Assembly (NCBI RefSeq): GCF_004340525.1
Contig: NZ_SLWX01000001.1
Location: forward strand, 310,001 to 374,000
Source: Chromatocurvus halotolerans
GTDB taxonomy: Bacteria > Pseudomonadota > Gammaproteobacteria > Pseudomonadales > Halieaceae
Length of the DNA stretch: 64,000 bases
Direction of reading: 5' to 3'
The notes under the pieces were generated by a model, which was not told the DNA's origin, did not search any database, and saw only the letters and a program-made list of their open reading frames with translations. The stretch's first letter is position 1. Every line of letters begins with the position of its first letter. Of this stretch, positions 42,963 through 64,000 are shown in pieces. Position numbers and translations under genes: made by a program.

Positions 42963-43553
42963 ATGTCCGAACCTAGCATGATCCCCGTTTATCCATCGTC
43001 ACCGGCCGGTGCCACATCACGACCAGACGTCACCCATCCCTGCGCCGGCCTCCTACCGCTTTCCCACCCGGGACGGAAACTGGGTCGCCTCACTGCAACG
43101 CTGCTGCTGTGTGTGAGCGGCATCGCGTCTTTCCACGCGCCACAGAGCGCAGCGGAGGACTTTCCCGGGCTGGAGCGATTGATGACTGTCGAGCAGTTTC
43201 GCAGAACCGGGCTACAGAAACTGTCAGACACTGAACTGGGGGCGTTGAACGAGTGGCTGATCGAATATACCGCCGGTAATGCCCAGATAATGCAGGGCAC
43301 CAGCGAGGCGGTGCGCGAGGCAGAAAAGAACCTGGAAATAAAGAGTCGAATCAGTGGGGATTTCAACGGCTGGGATGGCGACACCATCTTCCGCCTGGAA
43401 AACGGACAGATCTGGCAACAGCGTCTCGCGGGTCGCTATCCCTACCGCGGGCCTGAAAACCCCGAGATACGTATCAGCAAGAATTTTCTCGGTTTCTACA
43501 AGATGACCGTGCTCGAGTCTGGCAAGAGCGTTGGCGTGAAACGCCTTCGCTAG
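42963..43553 (+). CDS. Exported protein of unknown function
   Basis: This 196-residue protein has an AGGAGG ribosome binding site seven bases before ATG 42963. The N-terminus is long and polar before a hydrophobic segment (LGRLTATLLLCVSGIASF) and a cleavage-like AQSAAED. The mature part has LMTVEQFRRTGLQKLSDTEL, then GWDGDTIFRLENGQIWQQ. The order helix-pair then small beta domain is shared by a group of uncharacterised periplasmic proteins. It stands upstream of a TonB receptor but is separated from it by regulatory-looking palindromes. Confidence 0.65.
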   Translation: MSEPSMIPVYPSSPAGATSRPDVTHPCAGLLPLSHPGRKLGRLTATLLLCVSGIASFHAPQSAAEDFPGLERLMTVEQFRRTGLQKLSDTELGALNEWLIEYTAGNAQIMQGTSEAVREAEKNLEIKSRISGDFNGWDGDTIFRLENGQIWQQRLAGRYPYRGPENPEIRISKNFLGFYKMTVLESGKSVGVKRLR

Positions 43554-43783: not shown

Positions 43784-46663
43784 ATGTTGCACAAGAAACG
43801 TCTGTCCATGGCGGTCAGCGCCGCGATTGGCACTGCCTTCGCGATGGGAATGACTCCGGTCAACGCCCAGGAAGAAGCGATGGTCGAAGAAGTGGTCGTT
43901 ACCGGTTCGCGCATTCAGCGCGCCAACCTGGTGTCGTCCAGCCCGGTCACACAGCTCGACAACGAGCAGCTCCGGTTCACTGGCCTGAATCGCGTCGAGG
44001 ACGCACTGGCAGCAATCCCGGGTATTTCTTTGGACCAGTCCTCCGGACAGGCCATTGAGTCCATCGGTACAGCGACCATGCAGTTGCGCAACCTGGGTAC
44101 GACGCGAACGCTGGTTCTGATGAATGGTCGACGACTGCCGGCAAACTCGCCGCAGAGCCCCTCAGCCGCTGCGGACATCAACCTGATACCGGGCAACCTG
44201 ATTCAACGGGTTGAAGTCCTCACCGGCGGTGCATCGTCCACCTACGGTGCAGACGCGGTTGCGGGCGTTGTGAACTTCGTGATGCAGGACGATTTCCAGG
44301 GCGTTGAGCTGGATTACCAGTACTCCGGCCTGCGCCACAACAACGACGGTAACCTCATCGCCGACGCCGCCGAGCAGGCGGGGCAGCCCTTCGCCACAGG
44401 AACCACCTTTGACGGCGAAACCACGAACGTCAGCCTCATCATTGGTGGCAACTTCGACAATGATCGCGGCAACGTCACGGCCTTCGGTTCCTATCGTGAG
44501 ATTGCCGGCGTCACCCAGATCAATCGCGATTACTCAGCATGCCCGGTGCGCGACTCGCTCACCTGCCTCGGCTCTGCCACGAACGAGTCCGGCAGCATCA
44601 TTGCCACCGATCCGGACTCAGCCGGAGGTAATTTTCGCGTCGAGGGCAATCAACTGCTCCCCGGGTTTGGGCCTGGCTTCAATTTTGCCGCACCATCTTT
44701 TCTGCAACGTCCGGATGAGCGCGTCGTGCTGGGTACCTTTGCCCATTACGACCTGAACGAGCACGTCGAGGCTTACACCGAGCTCATGTTCATGGACACC
44801 AAGTCCACGACCCAGTTTGGCCCGTCAGGCTTCTTTTTCAACCCGACTGAAGTCAACTGTGACAACCCGTTCATGTCAGATCAGCAGCGTGACGTTCTTG
44901 GCTGCCAGGGCCCCGATGACGTGGTAGACTTGGTGATCGGACGCCGTAATGCGGAGGGTGGACCACGTTTTGGCAACTTCCGTCACTCAACCTATCGCGG
45001 AGTTTTTGGTATCCGCGGTGATCTCAGTGATGCCTGGCGTTACGACGTGTCCTACCAGTATGCCGAAGTGGATATGAACAACCGTAATGGCAACTACTTT
45101 GACATTGATCGTTTCCCCCAGGCCATCAAAGTTGTTGAGGGTCCTGACGGAACACCGGTCTGTGCACCCGGCGCTGATGATGGGTGCGTGCCCTACAACC
45201 TGTGGAACACCGGTGGCGTAACAAGGGAGCAGACAGATTTCCTGGAACAGCGCTTCTTCGAGTGGGGCACCACCTCACAGGAAGTGTTCATGGCCTTCGC
45301 ACAGGGCTCCCTTGGCGAATACGGCATTACCTCTCCATTCGCTGAGAGCGGTGTAGAGCTTGTCGTTGGCTACGAGTTTCGCGAAGAGACCCTGAAGTTC
45401 GACGGTTCGGACAACGTCAAGCGTCAGGGAACCATCGTCGAAACTGCCGGACGTTACGACGTCAATGAATTCTACTTCGAGGCCAACATTCCGGTCATAG
45501 AGGACGTCAATTTCATCCAGTCACTGTCTCTCGATGTCGGTTATCGCTACTCGGAGTATTCCTTCGGCCCGACGACAGATACCTACAAGTTCGCCGGCAG
45601 CTGGGCCATTGACGACAACCTCAAGCTTCGCGGCAGCGTTCAGCGCGCCGTGCGCGCGCCCAACGTGGTCGATCTGTTCCGGCCTGAGGTCGGCTCTCTC
45701 TACGCCATGGACCGGGATCCCTGCGAGAAGTCCAACCCCGGTGATGCATTGTCACGATCCGGGTATTCCTTCGAACAGTGTGCACGCTCGGGAGTCACCC
45801 AGGCGATCTGGGATCAGGGCGGTCCGCAATCGAACCCCGCCTCGCAGTACAACAGCGTTGTCGGTGGATCGACTGAGCTGCAGCCGGAAGAAGCCGATAC
45901 ATTGACCGCAGGTTTCATTTTTACGCCATCCTTCGCGCAGGGCCTCACCCTCAGCGTAGACTGGTACGACATTGAGATCGAAAAGGCCATTCAGGGTGTT
46001 CAGCCGGAGACGACGCTTCTGCAGTGTATCGAAACCGGTAACCCACTTTTCTGCGACGCGGTCAATCGAGGCCTCAACGATTCCCTGTGGCTGGGACAAT
46101 CATTGCTGGAGCCGAATTCGGGAGGCAGCGCGGTAGATGAGCGCAGCACGAATATCGGCTTCTTGGCAACGTCTGGTGTCGATGTCGAGATCACCTATAA
46201 CTTCGATATCGGTAACCTGGGTACTATCAACATTGCCAATATCGCGGGCTTTGTCCTTAGCTTTGAGCAGGAAGAGTTCCCGGGCGCGGGGGTTATCGAC
46301 TGCGAGGGCACGTATGGTGGTCCCTGTGGATTCCCCATTCCGGAACTGAAGAACCGTATGCAGGTGACGTGGGCAACGCCCTGGAATGTCACGGGCAGCC
46401 TGATCTGGCGTCATGTATCGGGCAGTGACCAGGAGTTCACCGACGTTCCGAATGATCTGGACGACATGAACTATCTGGATCTGGCAGCCACGTGGGAAGT
46501 CAGGGACTGGGCGTCAGTTCGTGTAGGTGTGAACAACGTGTTCGATGAAGAGCCGCCCTTTGTCTATCAGGGCGTCACCGCCCGCGAGAACGGTAATACC
46601 TTCCCGGGTATTTACGACCCGCTTGGGCAATACCTGTTCGCAGGCTTTACCCTGAGGTACTGA
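43784..46663 (+). CDS. TonB-dependent receptor with paired cysteines
   Basis: This 959-residue outer-membrane receptor has a signal peptide (AIGTAFAMGMTPVNAQE) and a TonB-box region EEVVVTGSRIQRANL. The plug has TTRTLVLMNGRRLP and VEVLTGGASSTYGADAVAGVV. The barrel ends in LFAGFTLRY with the usual C-terminal aromatic. The GSRIxR start is typical of the receptor group used for sugars, peptides or other organics rather than siderophores. At least six closely spaced Cys pairs lie in predicted loops, for example SACPVRDSLTCLG, CAPGADDGC and CEGTYGGPC. Downstream genes encode TPR-linked oxygenases and a TPR/TonB-like protein. The substrate is not deducible. Confidence 0.87.
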   Translation: MLHKKRLSMAVSAAIGTAFAMGMTPVNAQEEAMVEEVVVTGSRIQRANLVSSSPVTQLDNEQLRFTGLNRVEDALAAIPGISLDQSSGQAIESIGTATMQLRNLGTTRTLVLMNGRRLPANSPQSPSAAADINLIPGNLIQRVEVLTGGASSTYGADAVAGVVNFVMQDDFQGVELDYQYSGLRHNNDGNLIADAAEQAGQPFATGTTFDGETTNVSLIIGGNFDNDRGNVTAFGSYREIAGVTQINRDYSACPVRDSLTCLGSATNESGSIIATDPDSAGGNFRVEGNQLLPGFGPGFNFAAPSFLQRPDERVVLGTFAHYDLNEHVEAYTELMFMDTKSTTQFGPSGFFFNPTEVNCDNPFMSDQQRDVLGCQGPDDVVDLVIGRRNAEGGPRFGNFRHSTYRGVFGIRGDLSDAWRYDVSYQYAEVDMNNRNGNYFDIDRFPQAIKVVEGPDGTPVCAPGADDGCVPYNLWNTGGVTREQTDFLEQRFFEWGTTSQEVFMAFAQGSLGEYGITSPFAESGVELVVGYEFREETLKFDGSDNVKRQGTIVETAGRYDVNEFYFEANIPVIEDVNFIQSLSLDVGYRYSEYSFGPTTDTYKFAGSWAIDDNLKLRGSVQRAVRAPNVVDLFRPEVGSLYAMDRDPCEKSNPGDALSRSGYSFEQCARSGVTQAIWDQGGPQSNPASQYNSVVGGSTELQPEEADTLTAGFIFTPSFAQGLTLSVDWYDIEIEKAIQGVQPETTLLQCIETGNPLFCDAVNRGLNDSLWLGQSLLEPNSGGSAVDERSTNIGFLATSGVDVEITYNFDIGNLGTINIANIAGFVLSFEQEEFPGAGVIDCEGTYGGPCGFPIPELKNRMQVTWATPWNVTGSLIWRHVSGSDQEFTDVPNDLDDMNYLDLAATWEVRDWASVRVGVNNVFDEEPPFVYQGVTARENGNTFPGIYDPLGQYLFAGFTLRY

Positions 46664-46693
46664 TTACTGTCCACACGTCAGTAGCAGTGTTGT

Positions 46694-46724
46694 AAAGGGC
46701 CGGCTTTGCCGGCCCTTTTTTTTT
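46694..46724 (+). terminator. Intrinsic terminator after TonB receptor
   Basis: AAAGGGCCGGC and GCCGGCCCTTT form a strong stem with a three-base loop, followed by a run of nine T bases overlapping the stem end. It lies about 30 bases past the receptor stop, so the receptor is a separate transcription unit from the TPR-oxygenase gene. Confidence 0.92.
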
Positions 46725-46853
46725 GCGGGATCCATCGACTCACCCGGCCAATGCACTCCTGATAGTTCCCTCCTCCAAAGCCTTGTTACGCTCTCGGTAA
46801 TCCTGCATTGGCTTGTTACACTAGTCGCTCTATCGACAGGTACTGAGGCTTCT

Positions 46854-48686
46854 GTGAACCCGTCAGCACAACTGCTCTCCCAGGCAGCGACACTGCTGCA
46901 GCAGAAACACTTCGATGACTGCATCCGCCTGTGTCGACAGTGTCTTTCCCGGGCGCCGTCGATGACCGACTTCCAGCATCTACTCGCCCTGGCGCAGCAG
47001 CGCAGCAACCGCAGTTCGGATGCCGAAAAGACCTTTCGCCAGCTGGTTGCGCGCGAGCCCAAGCGGGCGGATTATCTGCTCAGCTATGGCGCCTTCCTGC
47101 GCGGGCAGGGGCACATGGCCCAGGCCGAGAGACGCCTGCGCAAGGCCTGCAAGCTGGCGCCGGAGTTTCATCAGGCCTGGCACGCGCTGGGCCTGCTGCT
47201 GTTTGCGACCGACAGACCGGGTGAGGCTTTCACTTGTGCGCAGCGGGTGACCACACTCGCCGCAGATTTTGCGCCCGGCTGGGAGCTCGCCGCCGCGGCG
47301 GCGCAGAAGCACGGCAGTATCGAGGAAGCCCTTCAGGCCTGCCGGGAGGGGCTGCAGCATCTCCCAGCGGCACCGCGTCTGCACTACTCACTGGCGCAGC
47401 TGCTGCGTGAGCGCTGCGAGTTTGACGCCGCGGCTGCCGCCTATGCCGCGTCCCGCGACTGCGGGCTCGACAGCCCGGACCTGTACCAGAATCACGCCGA
47501 TGCGCTGCTCGATGGCGGACACCCGGAGGATGCGCTGGCGGTCGCAGAAAGCGGCGTGCAGCGCTTTGCGCAGCACGCGCTGCTGCAGCGCACAGCGACA
47601 CGTCTGCATATCGAGGTGGGGGCGCCGGGCGACCCCCTGGCCAGACTGCGCGCAGCAACGCAGGGCAATCCCCAGAACCCGGAGCTCTGGCAGGCGCTGG
47701 TCGAACTGCAGAAGCGCATGGGACACACCGATGAAGCCGCGGCAACCCTGCGCGACGCCGCTGTCCGCGGCTGCCCCGGAACGCCGGGTATCGGAATATT
47801 GATGGCGCAGGATGCGGCGCTGCGCGGTGATTCCGCATCCGCAGAACAGCAGTTTGAACAGCTGCTTGAGCGCTACCCTGAAAGTGCGGCGACGCATATC
47901 AACTTCGCCATGCACCTCCTGGCCCGCGAGCAGCCGGATCGCGCTGCTGCGTTGTGCGATGCCGTCCTGCGTCACGAGCCTTTCAACCAGCTGGCTCTGG
48001 CCTACCTCACGACAGCGCTGCAGCTGCAGGGGGATGCGCGCGAGCACTGGCTCTGCGATTACGAGAAAATGGTCGTGGCCGTGCCCATCCCGGTGCCAGA
48101 GCCGTTTTCAAGCCGCGAGGCCTTTTTTGCCGCGCTGACCGAGGTGCTGGAAGAACAGCACCATGCCCGCTCGCACCCGATCGAACAGAGCGTGCGCGGT
48201 GGCACGCAGACCAACGGCTTCCTGTTTCGCCTGCCGCATCCCCTCTTGCGGGTGCTCGAGCAGCAGATTCGCAAGGCGGTGGCCAGCGCGATGGCAGAAT
48301 TTCGGCGCGATGAGCAACATCCTTTCTGGGGCCGTCCACAACAGACGGCGAGTGCTGCCGACCTGCGCTTTGCCGGCGCCTGGTCGGTGCGACTGCGCGA
48401 TCAGGGCTATCACACCAACCATATCCACCCCGAAGGCTGGATCAGTTCAGCGCTGTATATCAGCCTTCCGGAGGTTGTCACGACGGGGTCGGGGACTGAG
48501 GGCCATATTCAGTTTGGCGCACCGCTCGGGGAACTCGGCCTGAACCTGCCGCCGCGGCGAACGGTCCGGCCCGAGGTGGGGACGCTTGTCCTGTTCCCCT
48601 CCTATATGTGGCACGGCACCGTGCCCTTTCAATCGGAGCAGTCGCGGATAACCGTGGCGTTTGACCTGCTGCCGCCGGGGGCATAA
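46854..48686 (+). CDS. TPR protein with C-terminal 2-oxoglutarate/Fe(II) oxygenase domain
   Basis: This 610-residue soluble protein has about ten TPR-like helical repeats (1-400), then a putative 2OG-Fe(II) oxygenase domain (about 440-605). The double-stranded beta helix carries the iron facial triad in YHTNHIHPEGWISSALYIS and in VLFPSYMWHGTVPF, with the 2OG Arg in QSRITVAFDLL. GTG 46854 has GAGG upstream. TPRs usually bind a protein partner, so a protein or peptide hydroxylation role is plausible. The gene is convergent with the aspartyl hydroxylase gene 80 bases away. Confidence 0.85.
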   Translation: MNPSAQLLSQAATLLQQKHFDDCIRLCRQCLSRAPSMTDFQHLLALAQQRSNRSSDAEKTFRQLVAREPKRADYLLSYGAFLRGQGHMAQAERRLRKACKLAPEFHQAWHALGLLLFATDRPGEAFTCAQRVTTLAADFAPGWELAAAAAQKHGSIEEALQACREGLQHLPAAPRLHYSLAQLLRERCEFDAAAAAYAASRDCGLDSPDLYQNHADALLDGGHPEDALAVAESGVQRFAQHALLQRTATRLHIEVGAPGDPLARLRAATQGNPQNPELWQALVELQKRMGHTDEAAATLRDAAVRGCPGTPGIGILMAQDAALRGDSASAEQQFEQLLERYPESAATHINFAMHLLAREQPDRAAALCDAVLRHEPFNQLALAYLTTALQLQGDAREHWLCDYEKMVVAVPIPVPEPFSSREAFFAALTEVLEEQHHARSHPIEQSVRGGTQTNGFLFRLPHPLLRVLEQQIRKAVASAMAEFRRDEQHPFWGRPQQTASAADLRFAGAWSVRLRDQGYHTNHIHPEGWISSALYISLPEVVTTGSGTEGHIQFGAPLGELGLNLPPRRTVRPEVGTLVLFPSYMWHGTVPFQSEQSRITVAFDLLPPGA

Positions 48687-48768
48687 GTCGGGACTTCACA
48701 GTTTTCCCGCGGCCGCCGCTCTGTCTAGTGGGCCACGCGGCAGCAGGAGTGGCTATAGCAGGCAAGCC

Positions 48769-49935
48769 TCAGCCCTGCAGCCAGTCCCGGTGTGTCACCA
48801 GCAGCGCGGAAATCAGCTCGCGTTCGGCGGCGCTGAGCAGTGGATTCCAGATATCGAAAATCAGGATCACCCGGGTCTCGTCGGCATCGTTCCAGGCTTC
48901 ATGCTCGATGGTGTCGTCAAACACCCAGGCCTCACCGAGACGCCACTCCCGCTGCTGGTTGCCAACGCGGAAGCGCGCGGGACCCGGGAGCACCAGCGGC
49001 AGGTGCACCAGCAGGCGGGCATTGGTCGAGCCCGTGTGCGGCGGGATGTGCGTGTGCGGCGCCAGCGCGGAAAACAGCGCCGTCGGGGCAAAGCCGGGCT
49101 GGTCTGCCAGCGGGAGCTGCTCCAGCAAGGCCGCGGTTTTCGGGCAGCGCGCCATGGACTCGCTCTGTGCTTCACCGTCTTTCCACAGCCACAGGGAACT
49201 CCACTCGCGGGCGTGATTCAGCGCCTTGAACTGGTTCTCCGGCGTGCCGGGCGCGTACTGCACGTAGGGTTCAAAACCCGGAAGACCCGCCTTCAGCAGG
49301 CTGTCGAGTTCACCGCGAATGGTGTCGGTGGCCGCCTCCAGCGTTTCCAGCCAGGGGAAGTGGCTGCGCTCAAAGAAAGGGATCGCCGGCAGCTGCGGCA
49401 CATGCAGCTGCACCGGCTCGGCGTTGTAGACCTTCTTCGTGCCGGCCACAATATCCAGGCATTCCTCAAAGCGGCCCAGCGACTCGCCCTCGTGAGATTC
49501 CATTACCGGGCCCAGGGCATCGCGAAAATGCGCCGCCATCGCCTCCGACTGCTGGGCAATCACCGCCCTCGCCTGCTGCATTGGCGCGGCCAGACCGGCG
49601 GGCAGCTTGGCGTCCGGCGGGGCAATGCGCAGCGCGTTGCGGTAGACCTCGGCGGCCTGGCGCAGGTGGCCTATCTGCTCCAGGATGGATCCCTTGGACA
49701 ACAGCGCCATGAAGGTATAGGGATCGATCGCCAGCACCGCATTGAGGGACTCAATGGCCGCCGGGTAGTTGCCCAGCGCGCGCTGGGCAATGGCGACATT
49801 CATGTGCAGGTCGACGCTCTCGCCGTGCACCGGCATCGCCGCCTGCAGCAACTCCAGCGCGGAACGGGCATCACCGCGACGCACCCGCGACTGCGCCTCC
49901 TGAAGCGTGGTCTTCAGGCTGTTCTGTTCGTTCAT
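48769..49935 (-). CDS. TPR protein with aspartyl/asparaginyl beta-hydroxylase domain
   Basis: This 388-residue protein has TPR-like repeats over the first 110 residues and an AspH-type domain in the second half. The domain shows HIPPHTGSTNARLLVHLPL with the first iron His, and WVFDDTIEHEAWN with the second. The family hydroxylates Asp or Asn side chains in some organisms; bacterial targets are mostly unknown. ATG 49935 is one base past the stop of the TPR/TonB-like gene, so the two are tightly coupled. Confidence 0.87.
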   Translation of the reverse strand: MNEQNSLKTTLQEAQSRVRRGDARSALELLQAAMPVHGESVDLHMNVAIAQRALGNYPAAIESLNAVLAIDPYTFMALLSKGSILEQIGHLRQAAEVYRNALRIAPPDAKLPAGLAAPMQQARAVIAQQSEAMAAHFRDALGPVMESHEGESLGRFEECLDIVAGTKKVYNAEPVQLHVPQLPAIPFFERSHFPWLETLEAATDTIRGELDSLLKAGLPGFEPYVQYAPGTPENQFKALNHAREWSSLWLWKDGEAQSESMARCPKTAALLEQLPLADQPGFAPTALFSALAPHTHIPPHTGSTNARLLVHLPLVLPGPARFRVGNQQREWRLGEAWVFDDTIEHEAWNDADETRVILIFDIWNPLLSAAERELISALLVTHRDWLQG

Positions 49936-49936
49936 C

Positions 49937-51319
49937 CTAGTACCTGACCTGGTAGGTGCGCTGCAAATCCTTCGCAGCGACGACCTTGCCATTTTTCAGG
50001 CTCGGACGAAAGCGCACGTTGCGCAGGTAATGGTAGGCGCGGGTCAGCGTCAACTGAACCTGCTCGTCCGTGGTCTCGGTGAGAATCTGGATATCCCTGG
50101 CCTCACCGTGTCGTGTTACCCGGAAGCCCATCTGCACCTGTGCGTTGTTTTGTGCTTCCAGCGGCACCGCCCCCGGGTTGAAGACCCTGCTGCGCGGCAG
50201 CTCCAGCGGCGCGGCGAATTCACGCTGCAGCCAGTCCGCTCCCCCCTCTTCGCCGGCCATGATGTCCCAGGCCTCCTCGTACAGGCGAATCGCTTTCGCA
50301 TAGCGTCGGTGCCACTGGTACCAGTCCGCCCGGGCGATGCGTGCGTTCGCGAGTTCCTGTGCCGAGCTGTCGGGGTTGGCCTGCAGCACCGCCTCAGCGC
50401 GCTCAAGCGCCTCCCGACCGTAGCGAAAGTTATAGTCGCGCATTCGCCAGAAGCGCAGCTGTGCCTGATTCGCAAGGCTGGCGTCCATGGCCGGTCCGCC
50501 CGTGATGCGCACGCCGGATTGCTGTTCACCGGGATAGACCGAAACCAGGTAGCACAGATCGATATGGCCCTGCAGATAGGGCAGCAGTGCCCGGCTGTAC
50601 TCACCCTCGCTGGCTTCTATATTCTCGATCGCGTTCTCATAGAGGTCGTTGAGACCCACCAGGCGTGGATAGCGCAACCGGTCCATGTCGCCGAGATAGA
50701 CACCGCGCATCCAGTCGGCGTAGTGCAGGGTCGCCTCACGCATCCGGGGGCTGGCAGGATTCTGCTCCTGGTATTGCCTGACGCGATACAGGTAGGCCTG
50801 CTGCTCGTCGGCGGCGGCAAAATCACCCAGTCGCAGATGGGCTGCGATCAGCTGTTCCAGCATCGCTTCCTGCGCCGGGGTATACAGCCCCCGGTTGATG
50901 CGAACGAGATGAACAGCGCGCTGCAGATAATCGACGGCCTCGGTCACGCGGTCCTGCGAAAGGCTTGCATAGCCGAGTTCCGCGACCGGCCGGGACAGCC
51001 GCGCAGCCATGGGCCCAGCGAGAGACTCGAGTGTCTCGACCTCGGATTCGAGGGTTTCGATGGATTGCTCCGAATCCCGCACCAGCGGCGGATCGAACCG
51101 GAACGGACCGAGTGGATCTTCCTCCCGGTACAGGCTGGCGCCGTAGTGGGTTACCGGGGGTAGCTCCGGCGACAGGGATGAACAGCACTGCGCCCTGCCC
51201 GTGTCCGCCGCAGTGACGCTCGCGCACAGTGAGAGCAGCGCTGAAAGGCCCAGCGCCGCCCGAAGGTTGCCGACGTGCGCTACCTCACCTGCCCAGAACA
51301 CGCTTGCCACTCGCCACAC
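49937..51319 (-). CDS. Exported TPR protein with C-terminal TonB-like domain
   Basis: This 460-residue protein has a signal peptide (LRAALGLSALLSLCASVTA), a helical TPR-like middle (about 60-370) and an end that resembles the TonB C-terminal domain: VQMGFRVTRHGEARDIQIL, then YLRNVRFRPSLKNGKVV. AGGAG precedes the ATG with six-base spacing. It lacks the long Pro-rich linker and ExbB-contacting helix of classical TonB, so it is not an obvious energy transducer. Its place between a VPS10-like gene and the AspH gene links it to the receptor nearby, by inference. Confidence 0.7.
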   Translation of the reverse strand: MWRVASVFWAGEVAHVGNLRAALGLSALLSLCASVTAADTGRAQCCSSLSPELPPVTHYGASLYREEDPLGPFRFDPPLVRDSEQSIETLESEVETLESLAGPMAARLSRPVAELGYASLSQDRVTEAVDYLQRAVHLVRINRGLYTPAQEAMLEQLIAAHLRLGDFAAADEQQAYLYRVRQYQEQNPASPRMREATLHYADWMRGVYLGDMDRLRYPRLVGLNDLYENAIENIEASEGEYSRALLPYLQGHIDLCYLVSVYPGEQQSGVRITGGPAMDASLANQAQLRFWRMRDYNFRYGREALERAEAVLQANPDSSAQELANARIARADWYQWHRRYAKAIRLYEEAWDIMAGEEGGADWLQREFAAPLELPRSRVFNPGAVPLEAQNNAQVQMGFRVTRHGEARDIQILTETTDEQVQLTLTRAYHYLRNVRFRPSLKNGKVVAAKDLQRTYQVRY

Positions 51320-51329
51320 ATTGTCGCTC

Positions 51330-54300
51330 CTAGGGCGTCGCGTCGAGCGGTACCGGCGTCTGCGTCAGCAGCCCCAGCCCACTCTCGGCGAATGTCGCCC
51401 GAACCTCTGCGTGCTCACCTGCCAGGTAATCGTTCAAGGCCGAGACTGTCCCGGTGATACGCGCGGCGGCGCGCTCAACAAAGGCTTCCGCCGTCGGGCT
51501 TGGGGCATCGTAGGTGGACGTCAGGAAGGCCCGCGCCCGCTGCAGCATGCTCGATGCCCTGTCGTCCCCATAGGGGCGACCCACTGTGCCCTCGGGCTCA
51601 TGCAGATCGGCCTCAAGCGCGTCCAGCCGTTCACCGGCGGCCTTGGCCTGCTGCTGCAGAGCGTCGTGAGCCGAGGGGTCCTCCGACTGCTCGATCAGGG
51701 TTTTCACGGTGGCCAGATCCTGACGGGCACTCAGCACACGCCGGATGGCCTGGTCGAGGGTCGACTGCATGGACTGCAGCTCCAGCTGCATCGCCTGGTT
51801 CGCGTTCATCGCCGCCATCGAGACGCGGCTGCGGGGGTCAGCAAGCACGCGCGCCTCCACCGACTGCTCTGTGTCATCGAAGGCTATGGTCAGCTGATAA
51901 GTGCCCGGCAGCGCCTCGATGCCCGGCGGGAGATCGTCATCTGGCTTGCTCCCCTTGCCCGGCAGCGGTGGCAGACCGTCCCGCCTGAGATTCCAGACCA
52001 CCCGATTGATGCCTTGCTGGACGTCGGCGGTAAAGGTGCGGATGACGTCACCGCTGGCATCAGCAACCGTTATGGTAGCCCGCGGTGGCTCGCTACCTGC
52101 GGCGGACTCGTCGCCGCTATCGCGACTATCTTCCTCATCCTTCATTGTCGCCCGCAGTGCCGCCTTGCGCGCCTTTTCGCGCTTGGCATCGGGATGCGGC
52201 AGATCGTCACCGGATGCCATGAAGGTCAGCACAACGCCGTAGGGTTCGTTGGGGGCGTTGAACTCGCCATTGCCCCAGAAGCGGCCGGCGATGACCGGGT
52301 TGCTGTCGTATTGCTGGCCGTCGGTGGCGCCCAGGAGTGCGAATCGACGCTCGAAGTCGCCCGCCGAGAGGCCGCGCAGCGGGCTGACATCATCGAGCAC
52401 AAAGACGGCACGGCCATGGGTGCCTATCACCAGATCGCTCTCCCGCTCCTGGAACGCCAGGTCCATGACCGAGGACGTGGGCACACCGGCGGTAAAGCGG
52501 GTCCAGTCCTCGCCGGCGTTCAGGCTAAGGAACAGGCCGAACTCCGTGCCGGCCCAGAGCAGGTTCCCATCATCAGGATCCTGCAGCACCGACAGTGCGT
52601 AGCCAGTGATAGAGTCATCGGCCAGGCTCTCCCAGTGCCGCCCATAGTCCTCAGTGCGGTAGATGTAGGGCGTGAAGTCACCGCGCCGGTGATTGTCGAA
52701 CACCACAAAGGCGGTGCCCGCATCGTGGGGACTCGGATAGATCATGGGCACCCAGGTATTGTCCGGCACGCCGCCAACGTTCCCCTCGACGCTGGTCCAG
52801 GTCTCACCGCCGTCGCGGGTGACATGAAGCCGACCGTCATCGGTACCCACCCAGATCACGCCCTGCTCAACCCTCGAAGGCGCCACGGCGATGATGGTGG
52901 TGAAGTTCTCAGCGGCGGTCACATCAAAGGTGATACCCCCGGACGTGCGGAAAGTCTGCCAGTCGGGATTGTCCGTGGTGAGGTCATCGCTGATCACGTC
53001 CCAGCTCAGGCCTCGATCGGTCGACTTGTGCAGAAACTGGCTGCCGTAATATATGGTGGATGGCTCGAAGGGATCGATGGCAAACCCCGCAGACCAGTTG
53101 AAGCGCAGATCCGTGTCGGGGGTGGGTGGATTGGGCCGGATTGATCGCTGCTCGCCCGTGTTCAGGTTCCAGCGGCTCAGGTTGCCGCCCTGGCTCATCG
53201 CGTAGCCGGTATTCGCCATAACCGGGTCGGGCACCGTATCGAAGCCGTCGCCGAAGGCCACCTCCTGCCAGTGCAGGTTGCGGATGCCGCCGACGTCAAA
53301 GGTTTCGGCGGGCCCGCGCCAGGAGCCGTTGTCCTGCAGGCCGCCGTAGACGTTGTAAGGGTGCGCGTCATCCACGGCGACATGATAGAACTGGGCCAGG
53401 GGCAGGTTCTCGACAAAGCGCCAGGTATCTCCGCCATCCCGGGTGATGGCTATGCCGCCATCGTTGCCGGCAATCATGTGCTCCGGATCGGAGGGGTTGA
53501 TCCACCAGGCATGGGTGTCAATGTGGATCGAGTGGCCCGGCGCGCAGCAGTCGATAGCGGCGATGTACTCGAAGGTCCTGCCGCCATCAATAGAGCGGCG
53601 CACGCGGCTCTCCACGTTGTAGACCGTATCGGGGTCCTGCGGGTCGACGTCCAGCAACGTGTAATAGAAGGGCCGAACCGAGACATTGGCCTCGTCGTTG
53701 ACGGTCTTCCAGCGGTTGCCGCCGTCGTCGGAACGTATCAGGGCAGAGGTTTCGGCTTCAACCAGGGCATAGACCCGGTTCGGATCGCTGGGCGCGATGG
53801 CAAAGACCGAGCGGCCCAGGTCGCCCTCGGGGAGGCCATCCTCGACCGTCAGCGGGGTCCAGCTGTCGCCGCCGTCAATGGAGCGGAACAGTCCGGAGCC
53901 AGGCCCTCCACTCTCGAAACGGTAGGGCCAGCGACGGAACTCCCAGAGTGCCGCGAACAGCTTCTTCGGGTTGCGCGGGTCCATCTTGATGTCGGTGGCA
54001 CCGGTGCGCTCATTGGGCCCGGAGAGAATTTGGGCCCAGGTCTTGCCGCCGTCAGTGGTTCTGAAGACACCGCGGTCGCCGCCGTCGCTCCAAAGGGGCC
54101 CCAGCGCGGAGACATAGGCAATATCCGGATCGCTGGGGTGCAGCGCAATCCGGTTGATTCTTTCGGCGCCCTCCAGGCCCACCTTGACCCAGCTGCGCCC
54201 GCCGTCGGTGGAGCGATACATGCCGTCGCCGATGGACGCCGAGTTGCGGGTGGCTCCTTCACCGGTACCCACCCAGATAATGTCGGGGTGGTTCTGGTTG

Positions 54301-54587
54301 ATCGCGACCGCGCCGATGGAGTGGACCGGCTGATCATCGAACAACGGCGTCCACGTCAGGCCCCCGTTGTCTGAGCGCCACACGCCGCCGCTGGCAGCGC
54401 CGACGACAATGATTTTCGGATCAGTGGCCACCGAGGCCACCGAGGCGATGCGCCCGGACATGCCCGCCGGGCCAATGTTGCGGGCCTTCATGCCCGCAAA
54501 GTGATCCGGCGTGACGGCAGCCACCCCGATGGAAACGTGCAACAGCGACGCGCCCAGCAGCGCAGCCAGTGTATGTCTCATGGTCAT
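51330..54587 (-). CDS. Exported VPS10/sortilin-like beta-propeller protein (paralogue 1)
   Basis: This 1085-residue secreted protein has a signal peptide (AALLGASLLHVSIGVAA). A propeller follows with about eleven Asp-box repeats (S/T-x-D-x-G-x-x-W), for example RSDNGGLTWTPLF, RSTDGGRSWVKVG, RTTDGGKTWAQIL and VTRDGGETWTSVE. A beta-sandwich region (about 770-930) and a helical tail complete it. Such proteins resemble the ten-bladed VPS10 domain of sortilins; their bacterial role is unclear, with peptide or protein binding suspected. The start overlaps the amidohydrolase stop by three bases (ATGA). Its own stop is ten bases from the TPR/TonB-like start. Confidence 0.85.
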   Translation of the reverse strand: MTMRHTLAALLGASLLHVSIGVAAVTPDHFAGMKARNIGPAGMSGRIASVASVATDPKIIVVGAASGGVWRSDNGGLTWTPLFDDQPVHSIGAVAINQNHPDIIWVGTGEGATRNSASIGDGMYRSTDGGRSWVKVGLEGAERINRIALHPSDPDIAYVSALGPLWSDGGDRGVFRTTDGGKTWAQILSGPNERTGATDIKMDPRNPKKLFAALWEFRRWPYRFESGGPGSGLFRSIDGGDSWTPLTVEDGLPEGDLGRSVFAIAPSDPNRVYALVEAETSALIRSDDGGNRWKTVNDEANVSVRPFYYTLLDVDPQDPDTVYNVESRVRRSIDGGRTFEYIAAIDCCAPGHSIHIDTHAWWINPSDPEHMIAGNDGGIAITRDGGDTWRFVENLPLAQFYHVAVDDAHPYNVYGGLQDNGSWRGPAETFDVGGIRNLHWQEVAFGDGFDTVPDPVMANTGYAMSQGGNLSRWNLNTGEQRSIRPNPPTPDTDLRFNWSAGFAIDPFEPSTIYYGSQFLHKSTDRGLSWDVISDDLTTDNPDWQTFRTSGGITFDVTAAENFTTIIAVAPSRVEQGVIWVGTDDGRLHVTRDGGETWTSVEGNVGGVPDNTWVPMIYPSPHDAGTAFVVFDNHRRGDFTPYIYRTEDYGRHWESLADDSITGYALSVLQDPDDGNLLWAGTEFGLFLSLNAGEDWTRFTAGVPTSSVMDLAFQERESDLVIGTHGRAVFVLDDVSPLRGLSAGDFERRFALLGATDGQQYDSNPVIAGRFWGNGEFNAPNEPYGVVLTFMASGDDLPHPDAKREKARKAALRATMKDEEDSRDSGDESAAGSEPPRATITVADASGDVIRTFTADVQQGINRVVWNLRRDGLPPLPGKGSKPDDDLPPGIEALPGTYQLTIAFDDTEQSVEARVLADPRSRVSMAAMNANQAMQLELQSMQSTLDQAIRRVLSARQDLATVKTLIEQSEDPSAHDALQQQAKAAGERLDALEADLHEPEGTVGRPYGDDRASSMLQRARAFLTSTYDAPSPTAEAFVERAAARITGTVSALNDYLAGEHAEVRATFAESGLGLLTQTPVPLDATP

Positions 54588-55966
54588 AGTGCCGCCTCCA
54601 CCGGCTGTCCATCCTGCTTGTAGATCACGCCGCCCTTCATGACCATATCCACCCGTGACAGCAGGTTGATGTGGCGCAGCACGTCGCCTTTCACCGCAAT
54701 GATATCGGCATATTTGCCCGCCGACACCGTGCCCCACTTGTCCTCGACGCCCATCATCACGGCGCCCCAGTAGGTCGCGGCACGAATGGTCGTCATCGGG
54801 TCCACGTCCATCACGTTCACCCAGACATCCATTTCATTCCAGGTGCTCTGGCAGTGAAACTTCATGGGAATGCCGCTATCGGTGCCGACCAGCATGACCA
54901 CGCCGGAATCCCGCAGCTGCTGGAACTTGCGCTTGAGCGTCGGCTTGCGCAGCGGCGTGAGCTGGGTGTAGCCGAGCTCGCCGGGATTCTGGATGGAGCC
55001 CTTGATATCGGCAATCGTCGAGGCCTCCAGCCCCCGATGCCAGCAGGCGTTGTCGAGCTTTTCCGGGTTATCCACCGTGAACTCGTAGTTCCACAGCCCT
55101 TCCACCGTGGGCGTCCAGAACATTGGGCCCCCGGCAACACGCCCGGTGGCGGTGCGCTCCTTGAGCAGCTCGATCACATCCGCGGGATACTCGGGCGCCG
55201 TTGTCAGGCCCGTATGCTCGAAGTTGTCGACGCCGATCGCCAGGCCGCGGCGGATCTCATCCGGGCGGTGCGAGTGCGCGACGACCTTGAGACCATGCCT
55301 GTGTGCCTCGTCGACCACGGCCTGGGCCTCCTCAAGCGTCATCTTGTCCTGATCGATCAGCTTGATGATATCGACCCCTGCGTCGGCCAGCGTCCTCACC
55401 TTGCGCACGCCGTCTGCGACGCCATCCACGCCCCAGCGGTAGAAGTCCGTACCGGGGTAGGGCTCATGCTGGATAAAGGGACCGGAGATGAACAGTCGGG
55501 GCCCCGGGATCTCGCCAGACTCGATGCGCCGCTTGACCGAGACAGAAGCCTCCAGCGGCGCGCCCAGATCCCGGGTGGTGGTAACACCCGCCAGCAGCAT
55601 CTGCACGGCGCTGGCGGGCATGATCTCGCTGGCAAAGCGATCCACGTAGGTGGGGTGCCAGTGCGCGTAGTCGGCGTGACCATTGAGCATCAGGTGCGCG
55701 TGGTTCTCCCACAGTCCCGGAAGCACGTCCATGCCCTCGGTGGACACCACCTCGTAGCCCTCGGGAACGGGCAAAGTCTCGACGGTGCCCACCTCCTGGA
55801 TGATGCCGTCCTCGACAAGAATCACGCTGTTGGCAATCGGGCGGTGGCCGTAGCCATCGATGAGGCGGCCGCCCACCAGTGCGGTACCTGCCTGAGCAAG
55901 CAGGCTGGAAAGCGCCAGACTGGCACCGAGAATGACAGCGGAAACGCGCGTCAAGGAATGAACCAT
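54584..55966 (-). CDS. Exported amidohydrolase (metal-dependent, imidazolonepropionase-like group)
   Basis: This 460-residue metallohydrolase has a signal peptide (AVILGASLALSSLLAQA), so it works in the envelope. The TIM-barrel metal site is visible: HxH in PGLWENHAHLML, the carboxylated Lys in DIIKLIDQD, His in VVAHSHRP, His in NFEHTGLT, and Asp in VGTDSGIP. Related exported enzymes hydrolyse dipeptides, such as Xaa-Pro or Xaa-Arg, or other cyclic amides. It heads an operon with a VPS10-like protein, a TPR/TonB-like protein and AspH. The divergent M20 peptidase gene is beside it. Confidence 0.88.
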   Translation of the reverse strand: MVHSLTRVSAVILGASLALSSLLAQAGTALVGGRLIDGYGHRPIANSVILVEDGIIQEVGTVETLPVPEGYEVVSTEGMDVLPGLWENHAHLMLNGHADYAHWHPTYVDRFASEIMPASAVQMLLAGVTTTRDLGAPLEASVSVKRRIESGEIPGPRLFISGPFIQHEPYPGTDFYRWGVDGVADGVRKVRTLADAGVDIIKLIDQDKMTLEEAQAVVDEAHRHGLKVVAHSHRPDEIRRGLAIGVDNFEHTGLTTAPEYPADVIELLKERTATGRVAGGPMFWTPTVEGLWNYEFTVDNPEKLDNACWHRGLEASTIADIKGSIQNPGELGYTQLTPLRKPTLKRKFQQLRDSGVVMLVGTDSGIPMKFHCQSTWNEMDVWVNVMDVDPMTTIRAATYWGAVMMGVEDKWGTVSAGKYADIIAVKGDVLRHINLLSRVDMVMKGGVIYKQDGQPVEAAL

Positions 55967-57631: not shown

Positions 57632-60600
57632 TCAGTCCGACTGTCGGTCGGTTTCCACCGCCGGCGCCTTTACCGCGGGCCCTGCCACCGCATTGAAGGC
57701 GGCAAGGTCTTCTTCCACCAGCGTATCCCAGGCCTCCATGGCTGCCTGCCATTCGGGCCGCAGATCCTGCAGACGTTCACGCTGTCCCCGGGTCAGCCCG
57801 AGCACCGCATTGTCGGCCTGCTGGTAGACATCAATCAGGAAGGTGTCCAGCCGGGGATGGAAGTTGAGCACATCCTGAAAGGTCTCGCGGTCCGGTGTCG
57901 TCACTGAGGTCTGCCACGTTTTCAGGGCTGCAAGCAGACTCTCGGCGGCCTCTTCTACCTCATCATCGCCCGCCTCGGCCGCCAGTGCCTTGCGCAGTTC
58001 CACCTGCTTCTGCACGCTCTGCAGGCTGCCGATACGCCGGTAGATGCCGTCAATCATGTCGAAGACTTCAGCAAGGAAGGTCTGCTGCTCGGCAATGGCC
58101 TCCGCCTCGTAGCGGTTGATCGGATCCCAGATCAGCTCGACGCTTTCCTCCAGGGTCTCCTCACCCAGGCTCAGTCGCAGCGTATAGCTGCCCGGCGCCA
58201 GCCGATAACCGGCAATGGTCTTGTCCTTGCCCGCGCCGTAGGCGACGTCGTAGTCAAGTTTGGTTGCGGGGGCCCCGCGCAGATCCCACACAAAGCGGTT
58301 GATGCCCTCCTGCGCGGGCAGCGCCATCGCGGTGCCACTGCCGCCGCCCTTGTGTCCCTTCTCGGCATCCGTGGCGAATTCGCGGACGACCTGCCCCTCA
58401 GCGTCCAGCACCTCGAGCGTGAGCGACTGCTCGTCCAGGTCGATCTGGGCGGGCAGCGCGTAGTAGATCACCGCACCGTTGGGGGCACTCGGCGCCACAC
58501 TTTCTCCACCGGTTGCCCGGCCCTCGGTCGGCGTCAGGCGGTAGGCCGGTGAGGGTGTGTAGAGATGGAAGGGCGCGGTTTTCTGCGCCGGTGCAAACTG
58601 CCGCAGGGGCGCGATGTCGTCGAGCACCCAGAAGGCGCGGCCCTGGGTCGCCAGCACCAGGTCGTTGCGACGCACCATGAGATCCGTGACCGGCACCACC
58701 GGCAGATTCGTCTGCAGGGACTGCCAGTCGGCGCCGCCGTTGAAGGACAGGTACAGCCCCCGCTCCATGCCCGCAAACAGCAGGCCCTCGCGCTCGGGGT
58801 CCTCACGCACCACCCGGGCAAAGTGCGCCTCCGGCAGACCGTCGCTGATCGACGTCCAGCTGTTTCCGTAGTCCGCCGTGCGATACACATAGGGCCGATT
58901 ATCGCCTTCCTTGTACTTCATTACCGTCACGTAGGCTACCGCCGGGTTATGGGGAGACACCTCGATGGCATTCACCAGCCCGCGACCCACGCCCCGGGGC
59001 GTCACGTTCTTCCAGGTCTCGCCGGCGTCACGGGTGACATGGACCAGGCCGTCATCGCTGCCAACCCACAGGGTCGCGGCGTCGTGAGGGCTCTCGGCGA
59101 GGGCGAAGATCGTGTTGTACTGCTCGATGTTCTCGTTGGTGTAGGGGCCTGCGCCCCTGCCCTGCTTGTCGTCCTCGTTGCGCGTCAGGTCCGGACTCGC
59201 TTCCGTCCAGTTGAAGCCGCGATCGCTGGATTTCAGCAGCACGTTGGCAGCGTGGTAGATCACCTCCGGGTCGTGCAGCGACACGTGGATAGGCGCGTTC
59301 CAGTTGAAGCGATACTTCGCGTCCCGGGACAGCTGTCCCAGCCCGAGCTCCGCATAGGCCTTGATGGAGCGCGTGGTGCCGGTCTCGGTGTCGAACTCGT
59401 CGATCAGTCCGAGGTAACAACCGGCGTAGGTGTAGCGGGGATTGTCCGGATCCATCGCCACATAGGCGCTTTCGCAGCCGCCGTGCACGTCCCAGTCATC
59501 CCGGCCAATCTCGCCATCGCGGGAGCGACTGCGAATCGCCACCGTGGAATTGTCCTGCTGACCGCCATAGATCCGGTACTCGAAATCGTTGTCCGTGTTG
59601 ACCCGGTAGAACTGCGCCGTCGGCTGATTGTCCTGACGGGACCAGCTCTCGCCGCCATCGAAGGAGACGTTCGCCCCGCCATCGTTGGCGTTGACCATCC
59701 ACCGGGAGTTATCCGGATTCACCCAGAGGTAGTGATTGTCGCCGTGGGGAACCTCGACCGGGGAGAAGGTCTTGCCGCCATCGATGGACTTCATGAACGG
59801 CGCGTTCAGGACATACACCGTATTTTCGTCATTCGGGTCTGCAAAAATGTGCATGTAATACCAGGAGCGGGCGCGCAGGATGCGTTCCTTGTTCAGCTGG
59901 CTCCAGCTGTCACCGCCGTCGTCCGAGCGGTACAGGCCGCCCTCGTCACCCTCGGCCTCGATAATGGCCCAGACGCGCCCCGGCTTTGCCGGCGAGGCCG
60001 CAACGCCGATCTTGCCCATACCCTCGGGCAGGTCGTCGCTGAGTCTATCCCAGGACTCGCCGCCGTCCGTCGAGCGCCAGATGCCGCTGCCCTCACCGCC
60101 GGAGCGCAGCGACCAGGGCTCGCGCTGGTTATCCCACAGGGCGGCGAACAGAATTCGCGGATTGCTCATGTCGAGGGCGAGATCCACCGCGCCGGTGGTG
60201 TCATTCGGGGCCTCGAGCACCCGGCGCCAGGTCGCCCCACCGTCTGCCGACTTGTAGATACCGCCGCTGTCATCGGGCGCATAGGTGTTGCCCTGGGCCG
60301 CGACCCAGACGACATCGGGGTTCTGCGGATGGATGCGGATCTCACCGATCTGCCGGACATTCTCCAGACCCACGCGGGTCCAGCTCTTGCCGGCATTGGT
60401 CGATTTGTAGACGCCATCGCCCTGTGAGGAAGCAATGTTGCGGAACGGCGACTCCCCCATGCCCACGAACAGCACGTTTGGATCGGACTCGGCAACGGCA
60501 ATCGCGCCCACGGCAGACGAACCGAAGTCCTTGTCAGAGATCGGCGCCCAGCTCGCACCGGCGTTCTCGGTTTTCCACACACCCCCGGTTGTGCCCATGT

Positions 60601-60808
60601 AATAGACATGGGGGTTGTCCTTCACGCCCACGGAGACGGTCGCCCGGCCGCCGCGGAAGGGCCCGACGTTGCGGGCTTCAATGCCATCAAAGAACGCGCG
60701 CTCTTTTTCGGCACTGAAGGCCAGCGATGACGTCATTGCGGAAAGCAGGGAGAGAGCGAGGGTGCAGCGGGAAAGAAAACGGACAGGTTTGACGCAGGAT
60801 GACTTCAT
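57632..60808 (-). CDS. Exported VPS10/sortilin-like beta-propeller protein (paralogue 2)
   Basis: This 1058-residue secreted protein has ATG 60808 preceded by GAGGA at six-base spacing. A signal peptide (CTLALSLLSAMTSSLAFSA) precedes IEARNVGPFRGGRATVSVG. About eleven Asp-box repeats follow, for example KSTNAGKSWTRVG, KSADGGATWRRV, RSTDGGESWDRLS and VTRDAGETWKNVT. The beta-sandwich region begins near GAVIYYALPAQIDLD and the last 150 residues form a helical tail. Repeat order matches paralogues 1 and 3. It faces the M20 peptidase convergently. Confidence 0.87.
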   Translation of the reverse strand: MKSSCVKPVRFLSRCTLALSLLSAMTSSLAFSAEKERAFFDGIEARNVGPFRGGRATVSVGVKDNPHVYYMGTTGGVWKTENAGASWAPISDKDFGSSAVGAIAVAESDPNVLFVGMGESPFRNIASSQGDGVYKSTNAGKSWTRVGLENVRQIGEIRIHPQNPDVVWVAAQGNTYAPDDSGGIYKSADGGATWRRVLEAPNDTTGAVDLALDMSNPRILFAALWDNQREPWSLRSGGEGSGIWRSTDGGESWDRLSDDLPEGMGKIGVAASPAKPGRVWAIIEAEGDEGGLYRSDDGGDSWSQLNKERILRARSWYYMHIFADPNDENTVYVLNAPFMKSIDGGKTFSPVEVPHGDNHYLWVNPDNSRWMVNANDGGANVSFDGGESWSRQDNQPTAQFYRVNTDNDFEYRIYGGQQDNSTVAIRSRSRDGEIGRDDWDVHGGCESAYVAMDPDNPRYTYAGCYLGLIDEFDTETGTTRSIKAYAELGLGQLSRDAKYRFNWNAPIHVSLHDPEVIYHAANVLLKSSDRGFNWTEASPDLTRNEDDKQGRGAGPYTNENIEQYNTIFALAESPHDAATLWVGSDDGLVHVTRDAGETWKNVTPRGVGRGLVNAIEVSPHNPAVAYVTVMKYKEGDNRPYVYRTADYGNSWTSISDGLPEAHFARVVREDPEREGLLFAGMERGLYLSFNGGADWQSLQTNLPVVPVTDLMVRRNDLVLATQGRAFWVLDDIAPLRQFAPAQKTAPFHLYTPSPAYRLTPTEGRATGGESVAPSAPNGAVIYYALPAQIDLDEQSLTLEVLDAEGQVVREFATDAEKGHKGGGSGTAMALPAQEGINRFVWDLRGAPATKLDYDVAYGAGKDKTIAGYRLAPGSYTLRLSLGEETLEESVELIWDPINRYEAEAIAEQQTFLAEVFDMIDGIYRRIGSLQSVQKQVELRKALAAEAGDDEVEEAAESLLAALKTWQTSVTTPDRETFQDVLNFHPRLDTFLIDVYQQADNAVLGLTRGQRERLQDLRPEWQAAMEAWDTLVEEDLAAFNAVAGPAVKAPAVETDRQSD

Positions 60809-60891
60809 GGAATGTCCTCGGCAAAGCATGAAAGGGTTTGGCGTAACCGTTCAGCCCGGACGGGAATGCATGAGGGTGAACGACTGTCGTG

Positions 60892-63900: not shown

Positions 63901-64000
63901 GTCGCGCCGAAGTAGTAGCGATCGCGATCACCCGGAATGCCGGTCACCGCCGCAGAACGACCGCCACGAAATGGACCTACCTCGCGCCATTCAATAGCGC
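60930..64000 (-). CDS. VPS10/sortilin-like beta-propeller protein (paralogue 3), 5' end outside window
   Basis: The frame stays open to the right edge, so the start and any signal peptide are missing; about 1022 residues are visible. The edge reads WREVGPFRGGRSAAVTGIPG, equivalent to the N-terminal region of paralogue 2. About eleven Asp-box repeats are present, including RTDDGGASWDNIS, KSLDAGDTWFRAG, RTRDGGESWEKVL and LTRNGGESWDDVT. The sandwich region has GAMIYYSLPDSLGDD, and a helical tail ends the protein. It has its own terminator and lies 121 bases upstream of paralogue 2. Confidence 0.87.
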   Translation of the reverse strand, partial: AIEWREVGPFRGGRSAAVTGIPGDRDRYYFGATGGGVWRTDDGGASWDNISDGYFGGSIGAVEVSTWDPNVIYVGTGEKTVRGNVSPGDGMWKSLDAGDTWFRAGLEDSQHISRIRTHPTNPDIAYAAVMGHLFGPNEQRGVFRTRDGGESWEKVLYVNDEVGAVDLEMDPTNPRILYASFWRVKRTPYSLESGGPGSGIYKSVDGGDSWEELTGNEGLPKGTIGISGVTVSPTNNQNVYAIIEAEEGGVFRSRDGGQTWKQTSDNRNLRQRAWYYSRIYADPVDEESVYVLNVQFHFSKDGGKTFSQIEVPHGDNHDLWIDPADPLRMIQSNDGGANVSYDRGETWSTQANQPTVQFYRVSADNDFPYRLLGGQQDNSAVRIRSQSAMGSSISVRDWEPTAGGESGHIAAKPDDPDVVVGGSYGGLLRLVNHRTGERRAIDVWPDNPMGWGAAELKYRFQWNYPISFSLHDPDVLFVAANAVFRSDDLGESWTQISPDLTVDDKSRMGKSGGPITKDDTSVEYYGTVFALTESPHEAGVMWAGSDDGKVHLTRNGGESWDDVTPSALPEWAMVNSIDADPFNEGGAYLAATRYKLDDFKPYLFYTNNWGKSWKRIDSGIPDTHFTRVLRADPEREGLLFAGTERGAYYSLDNGSSWSPIQLNLPIVPITDMLIKEGDLVAATQGRGYWIMDDLSPLRQLDEAHSNSVHLYTPGSAHRLLSRGRDRNTDPAGTNPPEGAMIYYSLPDSLGDDTPVELSVYAADDEDAIWTWSRKPADGEESTPENADSGAADTRVLAAEPGLNRHVWDLHYPGMERFDGLILWSDMKDGPRAVPGDYRAELRVGDEVQEVSFSVVQDPRSSASAEDMAAQFAFVSETRDLLSRTHTEIGKIRTLRSKLDSLKTRLLDAGDSVEQPSPLLAEILSIGETITDVEETLYQTKNQSRQDPLNFPIRLNDKLASLMRMVSLGDQGPTTQAQAVKAELSSAIEAQLAILDTVWEEQIPSLNARIKSADIDMISMSAD

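Follow-up and report, generated by a model that had tools for sequence, protein, structure and literature searches.

A clade of TonB-dependent receptors in Chromatocurvus halotolerans and other Proteobacteria is recurrently accompanied by TPR-armed oxygenases and sulfotransferases

The window analysed here, a 64,000-nucleotide stretch of the 3.9 Mb genome of Chromatocurvus halotolerans (contig NZ_SLWX01000001.1, positions 310,001 to 374,000), encodes a TonB-dependent outer-membrane receptor together with a small exported protein, two putative iron oxygenases that each carry a tetratricopeptide repeat (TPR) arm, and an exported TPR protein. The grouping of these genes goes beyond chance; it is real, and it is much broader than the window. 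Our favoured reading, which we hold tentatively, is that the receptor imports a peptide-type ligand and that the TPR-armed cytoplasmic enzymes modify a polypeptide, likeliest the receptor itself or its small exported partner. A first-pass annotation of the locus had described one neighbourhood; the receptor, both TPR oxygenases and the exported TPR protein do form a conserved one, whereas two further genes that it had included, for a VPS10-type propeller and an amidohydrolase, were not found near the receptors of relatives. It had overlooked the small exported protein, the TPR-sulfotransferase and methyltransferase found at the same site in relatives, and the interchangeable nature of the enzyme set. 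The genes of the module in the window are as follows (2OG, 2-oxoglutarate).

42963..43553, + strand: small exported protein, here sml (start uncertain, 43113 alternative); it lies outside the segment covered by the first-pass annotation
43784..46663, + strand: TonB-dependent outer-membrane receptor, 959 aa (Pfam Plug, E 2e-18; TonB_dep_Rec_b-barrel, E 8e-26)
46854..48686, + strand: TPR-2OG, a TPR arm plus a 2OG-Fe(II) oxygenase domain (PF13759), 610 aa, GTG start
48769..49935, - strand: TPR-AspH, a TPR arm plus an AspH-type oxygenase (PF05118), 388 aa
49937..51319, - strand: exported TPR/TonB-like protein (start uncertain, 51301 alternative; a TonB-like C-terminal domain is possible)

We searched 117 genomes, that of C. 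halotolerans included, with the TPR/TonB-like, AspH, TPR-2OG and receptor proteins, fetched the surroundings of the matches, and called and clustered the genes. This revealed a recurrent unit with the order small exported protein, receptor, TPR-2OG, (TPR-sulfotransferase), TPR-AspH, TPR/TonB-like protein. Over the fetched loci and the window, AspH lay within 5 kb of a receptor gene in 30 of 37 cases (out of 42 matches, five weak or truncated ones being left out) and TPR-2OG in 18 of 23 (out of 36 matches, 13 short or TPR-only ones being left out); the homologues are thus not scattered, which bears out the co-occurrence that the first-pass annotation had put forward for checking. The same distance held for all 34 distinct sml genes (median distance 92 bp), 21/21 TPR-sulfotransferases, 17/19 methyltransferases and 7 of 12 distinct TPR/TonB-like genes, where the sml, sulfotransferase and methyltransferase counts are biased upwards because these genes came along with receptor or AspH loci and had no search of their own, and where duplicate sml and TPR/TonB-like genes from two loci that overlap on one contig (L076 and L118) were each counted once. 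Seen from the receptor, 25 of the 29 in-family receptors closest to that of the window (the window included; the others 45-69% identical to it by BLASTP) had AspH within 5 kb, 14 of the 29 had TPR-sulfotransferase, nine had TPR-2OG, and 28 had AspH or sulfotransferase; two receptor fragments at contig ends, G024/L117 (sulfotransferase present) and G018/L116 (none), were left out. All three TPR-2OG matches in the C. halotolerans genome adjoin receptors of this group: besides the window, there are two more loci with receptor, TPR-2OG and methyltransferase genes (L065 on C3 and L066 on C8), one of which also has a VPS10 gene.

Many of the in-family copies share a single site, marked by tkt-gap-pgk-fba and/or a serA-like gene (names assigned by inspection), as would be expected if common descent at a conserved position, and no functional link, had kept the genes adjacent. 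We give this explanation a very slim chance, since the genes of the window set have stayed together at a place other than the usual fba-serA site, linkage with the receptor turns up in numerous arrangements across Alpha-, Beta- and Gammaproteobacteria, most genomes with an unlinked AspH retain the receptor, and AspH has apparently been exchanged beside the same receptor lineage. The fba-serA site of the C. halotolerans genome itself (L112; C9:45890-48748) carries a different, related receptor with an in-frame TAG stop, beside an sml copy.

Outside the family, the best 80 of the matches listed in an AspH profile search gave named loci in Caulobacterales, Sphingomonadales, Lysobacter, Rheinheimera, Steroidobacteraceae, Duganella and others. 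A receptor gene was found within 5 kb of an AspH copy in 48 of these 80, a count that takes any AspH copy (at L136 the second copy, not the anchor) and includes three weak receptor matches. Using density by distance from AspH as an internal control in these loci, we obtained 12.8 receptors per 100 kb within 2.5 kb as against 1.1 at 7.5-10 kb (about 12-fold), and 7.9 TPR-sulfotransferases per 100 kb as against 0.4 over the same two zones. Where AspH was unlinked, the receptor clade was still present in 29 of the 32 genomes, and in a 398-genome draw from the phylum, with C. halotolerans excluded, 23 genomes had both AspH and receptor, three AspH only, 28 the receptor only and 343 neither (Fisher p 3e-20). 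A wider receptor-centred sample consisted of 39 places outside C. halotolerans that scored at least 925 bits in the phylum draw and one from another search (at L248 and L262 the central receptor scored low and may be a neighbouring gene). At 19 of these 40 best places at least one of the enzymes was encoded within 5 kb: TPR-2OG at 13 plus one weak match, sulfotransferase at seven and AspH at six. The enzymes also cluster with one another, as at a Hyphomonadaceae locus (L133) with two AspH, two TPR-sulfotransferase and one TPR-2OG genes and no receptor in the fetched stretch.

The identity of the enzymes varies with the receptor group. The window's in-family group has AspH and TPR-2OG (with sulfotransferase in some cases), and its sister group mostly AspH with a methyltransferase, sometimes a sulfotransferase; in single in-family loci the sulfotransferase occurs by itself or together with a PKHD-like oxygenase, and a set further removed has SapC as well. 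The receptors of the two Halieaceae groups are sisters (FastTree, support 99), whereas the AspHs of the window group sit among Caulobacterales sequences in the AspH tree. A tree forcing the AspHs of both groups together was rejected (approximately unbiased test, p 0.0001, 58 rows), in a comparison from which 53 of the 80 named loci and nine in-family loci that were divergent or unlinked had been omitted, and in which the tested AspH group had been named after an earlier AspH tree was seen. Because the receptors are sisters and the AspHs are not, one AspH seems to have taken the place of another next to a receptor lineage that stayed the same, and such a replacement is hard to explain without a functional link.

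TPR-2OG matches PF13759 at 79.8 bits against a cut-off of 27, its candidate active-site His residues are invariant across 15 sequences, and its start agrees with that of its relatives. TPR-AspH matches PF05118 at 148.9 bits against a cut-off of 22.6, and its AlphaFold2 model (pLDDT 92.5) has as its ten best PDB matches structures of the TPR and oxygenase domains of human AspH (E 3e-18 to 1e-17, over 384-454 alignment columns). Because the overall TM score against human AspH is low (0.40-0.46), the model suggests that the angle between the two domains differs. Human AspH, the aspartate/asparagine beta-hydroxylase, binds iron through H679 and H725 and 2OG through S668, H690 and R735 (PMC6817910; PMC13168262, which prints the last as R736). 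Counted on the alignment, H300, H345, S289, H311 and R355 of TPR-AspH correspond to H679, H725, S668, H690 and R735, and these cofactor residues are invariant in sets of 18 and 42 sequences. The bacterial protein thus shares with human AspH the order of TPR arm and oxygenase domain in one chain, as well as the two-His iron site and the 2OG-binding Ser, His and Arg. It differs in having Leu in place of R688, and in that inspection found neither signal nor membrane anchor, so that it is probably cytoplasmic, whereas human AspH hydroxylates EGF-like domains in the lumen of the endoplasmic reticulum (PMC6817910). TPR-2OG likewise has no signal peptide by inspection and is presumably cytoplasmic too. 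The TPR-sulfotransferase of a relative matches PF13469 as well as TPR families.

An AspH-type enzyme might instead hydroxylate a lipid, as LpxO and OlsC do, with its place beside the receptor incidental. The oxygenase domain does match the curated models of both, at 108.2 bits for OlsC (E 4e-31) and 67.9 bits for LpxO (E 8e-19), but these scores are far under the respective cut-offs of 450 and 500 bits. As the closest solved fold is human AspH, TPR arm included, and the linkage with the receptor greatly exceeds the background seen in the far zone, we regard lipid hydroxylation as very improbable.

The exported TPR protein had been described as having a TonB-like end. A signal peptide is seen by inspection, and the TPRs, weak in the window protein alone (E 0.009), are clearer in relatives; the TonB-like end, however, is suggestive only, as the best TonB chain in the PDB is a weak match (E 0.016) and the TonB C-terminal domain PF03544 is matched, also weakly, by two of 12 members (best E 0.026) and not by the window protein. 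The protein is matched in 77 of the 117 genomes, C. halotolerans included, and its gene directly adjoins AspH in seven of the relatives' loci. A signal peptide is likewise seen by inspection in sml, whose window protein matched no Pfam family.

The receptor itself has a Plug domain and a receptor beta-barrel according to Pfam, its AlphaFold2 model (pLDDT 85.6, pTM 0.84) and its fold matches, the 50 best-listed solved folds all being TonB-dependent receptors of several kinds at 10-14% identity. The label 'Cys-pair-rich' given to it earlier fits eight invariant or nearly invariant Cys residues (460/468, 647/666, 748/757 and 840/848). Regarding its substrate class (B12, haem or siderophore), none of the 22 NCBIfam families listed reaches its cut-off; the best curated model, TonB-B12, scores 74.7 bits against 599.7.

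There is modest evidence that the cargo is of peptide type. Two Nevskia-type genomes have receptor, AspH, family-5 binding protein, permease and oligo_HPY ATPase genes in one run, and the eight family-5 binding-protein genes found all lie less than 3 kb from a receptor, five of them being seeds of the search profile. The earlier suggestion that the locus modifies or takes up a peptide is thereby backed indirectly, by the oligopeptide-importer genes that a few relatives have next to the receptor and by the likeness of TPR-AspH to human AspH, which is a protein hydroxylase. On our favoured reading, receptors of this clade and their small exported partners would import an oligopeptide or peptide-like ligand, and cytoplasmic enzymes each composed of a TPR arm and a catalytic domain (an AspH-type hydroxylase, a 2OG-FeII_Oxy_5 oxygenase and, in relatives, a sulfotransferase) would act on a polypeptide, the arm gripping it and the catalytic domain modifying its side chains. 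Modification of the receptor or of its small partner before export might then alter ligand binding or folding, and the exchange of one enzyme for another would retune the same receptor.

Three considerations lead us to favour the receptor or its partner as the substrate. Most genomes with AspH have a member of the receptor clade, unlinked cases included; human AspH touches its polypeptide substrate with the TPR arm (PMC6817910); and piuC, another receptor-adjacent 2OG oxygenase gene, is associated with receptor-dependent drug uptake (PMC11878004). The stronger proposal is that an exchangeable set of TPR-armed enzymes, a true bacterial AspH among them, hydroxylates and sulfates receptors or small partners post-translationally in the cytoplasm, and that this amounts to an unrecognised modification system for proteins of the outer membrane in which a swap of enzymes retunes one receptor scaffold; it strikes us as somewhat doubtful. 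A recurrent receptor partner narrows the question of the enzymes' substrate to a few testable proteins. Should the substrate turn out to be the receptor, outer-membrane biology would gain protein hydroxylation and sulfation as a new kind of system; a peptide substrate would imply modified ligands of a new class.

The latter outcome would follow if the enzymes tailored a small peptide, ribosomal or other, that serves as a metallophore or signal and is exported and then retaken by the receptor. Hydroxylases, sulfotransferase and methyltransferase do resemble a tailoring set, and the importer genes that adjoin the receptor in a few relatives would suit such a cycle. Methanobactin, a copper-binding peptide, is served by a sulfotransferase and iron enzymes, and methanobactin operons combine a TonB-dependent receptor with iron enzymes, in some cases a sulfotransferase, and a precursor peptide. 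Here, in contrast, no precursor and no convincing conserved small open reading frame (ORF) was found among the ORFs of 18-130 aa between the genes of the fetched stretches, a search outside which peptide synthetases and exporters lay. Small-ORF clusters took in three close loci in a group of nine, none of 19, up to 11 of 20 and up to four of five, and are read as conserved non-coding DNA. We consider a peptide ligand made at the locus unlikely, if deserving of attention.

Several observations weigh against the favoured reading. Linkage within the family partly reflects shared ancestry at one site, and the genome co-occurrence tests are confounded by lineage. Outside the family, 32 of the 80 AspH loci have no receptor within 5 kb (some contigs being short), 18 of these 32 carry Caulobacterales titles, and 21 of the 40 receptor loci in the wider sample have none of the enzymes within 5 kb. 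Unlike the receptor, genes labelled 2OG show no clear fall in density with distance from AspH (3.5, 2.7, 3.4 and 0.8 genes per 100 kb in consecutive zones of 2.5 kb). No gene fusion was found among the enzymes, and a terminator-like hairpin sits between the receptor and TPR-2OG genes. At the level of residues, a scan of the receptor alignment using independent pairs found no column that tracks the presence of AspH, sulfotransferase or 2OG enzyme after correction (best p 0.012, with 3252 tests per enzyme). A receptor loop motif, CVP[WY]N, had looked promising as a mark of enzyme presence in the AspH-selected sample, but this vanished in the receptor-centred one, where the motif's aromatic residue was present in 6 of 12 enzyme-bearing loci as against 12 of 19 without an enzyme (eight further loci had no readable motif and one no central receptor). 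Finally, the effect of PiuC is ascribed, on the basis of sequence comparison, to expression of piuA and not to modification (PMC11878004).

Each of the protein families involved is already known, and an oxygenase gene beside a receptor gene has precedent. We take the PiuC class to consist of small PKHD-type enzymes without a TPR arm, and the window oxygenases fall outside it, as both have TPR arms and match PF13759 and PF05118. In Pseudomonas aeruginosa, the 2OG oxygenase gene piuC adjoins piuA, the gene of a TonB-dependent receptor, and mutations of piuC are associated with lowered susceptibility to a siderophore drug and with a loss of drug uptake that depends on the receptor (PMC11878004). 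The arrangement of an iron/2OG oxygenase gene adjacent to a receptor gene is thus shared, while PiuC is of PKHD type, and passages of the same source mention no TPR arm and describe no exchange of enzymes. Protein uptake has been implicated for the TonB-dependent importer RagAB of Porphyromonas gingivalis (PMC11817032). RagAB has in RagB a lid lipoprotein, a partner for which no equivalent was found among the window proteins scanned. We know of no modifying enzymes that work with RagAB. Searches of the open-licence PubMed Central literature (without bioRxiv) turned up no description of a receptor associated with a TPR-armed modifying enzyme, no bacterial TPR-AspH, TPR-2OG or TPR-sulfotransferase protein to which a substrate or partner has been assigned, and no confirmation that SapC and halogenase genes occur next to carbohydrate receptors; the word 'TonB' is absent from the main text of PMC8269204, PMC7336383 and PMC5945002.

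The six genes named in the first-pass annotation, from the receptor to the amidohydrolase, are all present where it placed them. The remaining features of the locus are:

46694..46718, + strand: strong terminator-like hairpin 3' of the receptor gene (11-pair stem with a T run)
51330..54587, - strand: VPS10/sortilin-type propeller (Pfam), outside the conserved module
54584..55966, - strand: exported amidohydrolase (domain-library matches), outside the conserved module

Because the strong hairpin follows the receptor gene, receptor and TPR-2OG probably belong to separate transcripts, and their co-transcription is disfavoured; taken as a class, such terminator-like sites show no excess in the region (7 found, 8.1 expected). 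Judged by spacing, the four minus-strand genes look like one operon in the order amidohydrolase, VPS10, TPR/TonB-like, AspH, and the likely start of TPR-AspH at 49935 is one base beyond the stop codon of the preceding gene.

That AspH ends a gene run with an exported amidohydrolase and a VPS10 protein would suit a receptor that imports a nutrient peptide or conjugate, which cytoplasmic enzymes then oxidise or sulfate for use or detoxification. An M20 peptidase gene begins 0.2 kb beyond this run, in divergent orientation, and S9 peptidase homologues, found with a one-seed profile, lie less than 3 kb from a receptor in six places and 3-6 kb away in a seventh. Against this, neither the amidohydrolase nor the VPS10 gene is conserved with the module, sulfation would be unusual as a catabolic step, and the TPR arms point towards a macromolecule, so that we judge nutrient catabolism improbable. 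Both genes were rejected as module members, as neither is found near the receptors of relatives: outside the window the VPS10 cluster occurs only at L065, in the same genome, and the other fetched loci that contain a receptor yielded no amidohydrolase homologue at a threshold of E 1e-12 (an amidohydrolase-like gene at L059, seen by inspection, was missed by that search). The window contains three VPS10/sortilin-type propeller genes, near-tandem on the minus strand (51330-54587, 57632-60829 and 60930-63947).

Two further observations concern the surroundings of the receptor in the family. The fba-serA site is shared by a second receptor gene, next to which FecR-like and ECF-sigma-like genes often lie (labelled by inspection; L071, L075, L077-L079, L081, L083, L099-L102, L105 and L106). 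Upstream of the receptor, apparently conserved non-coding DNA, possibly regulatory, is seen in up to 11 of 20 in-family loci, for example at L099:5088-5147 and L101:7933-7992.

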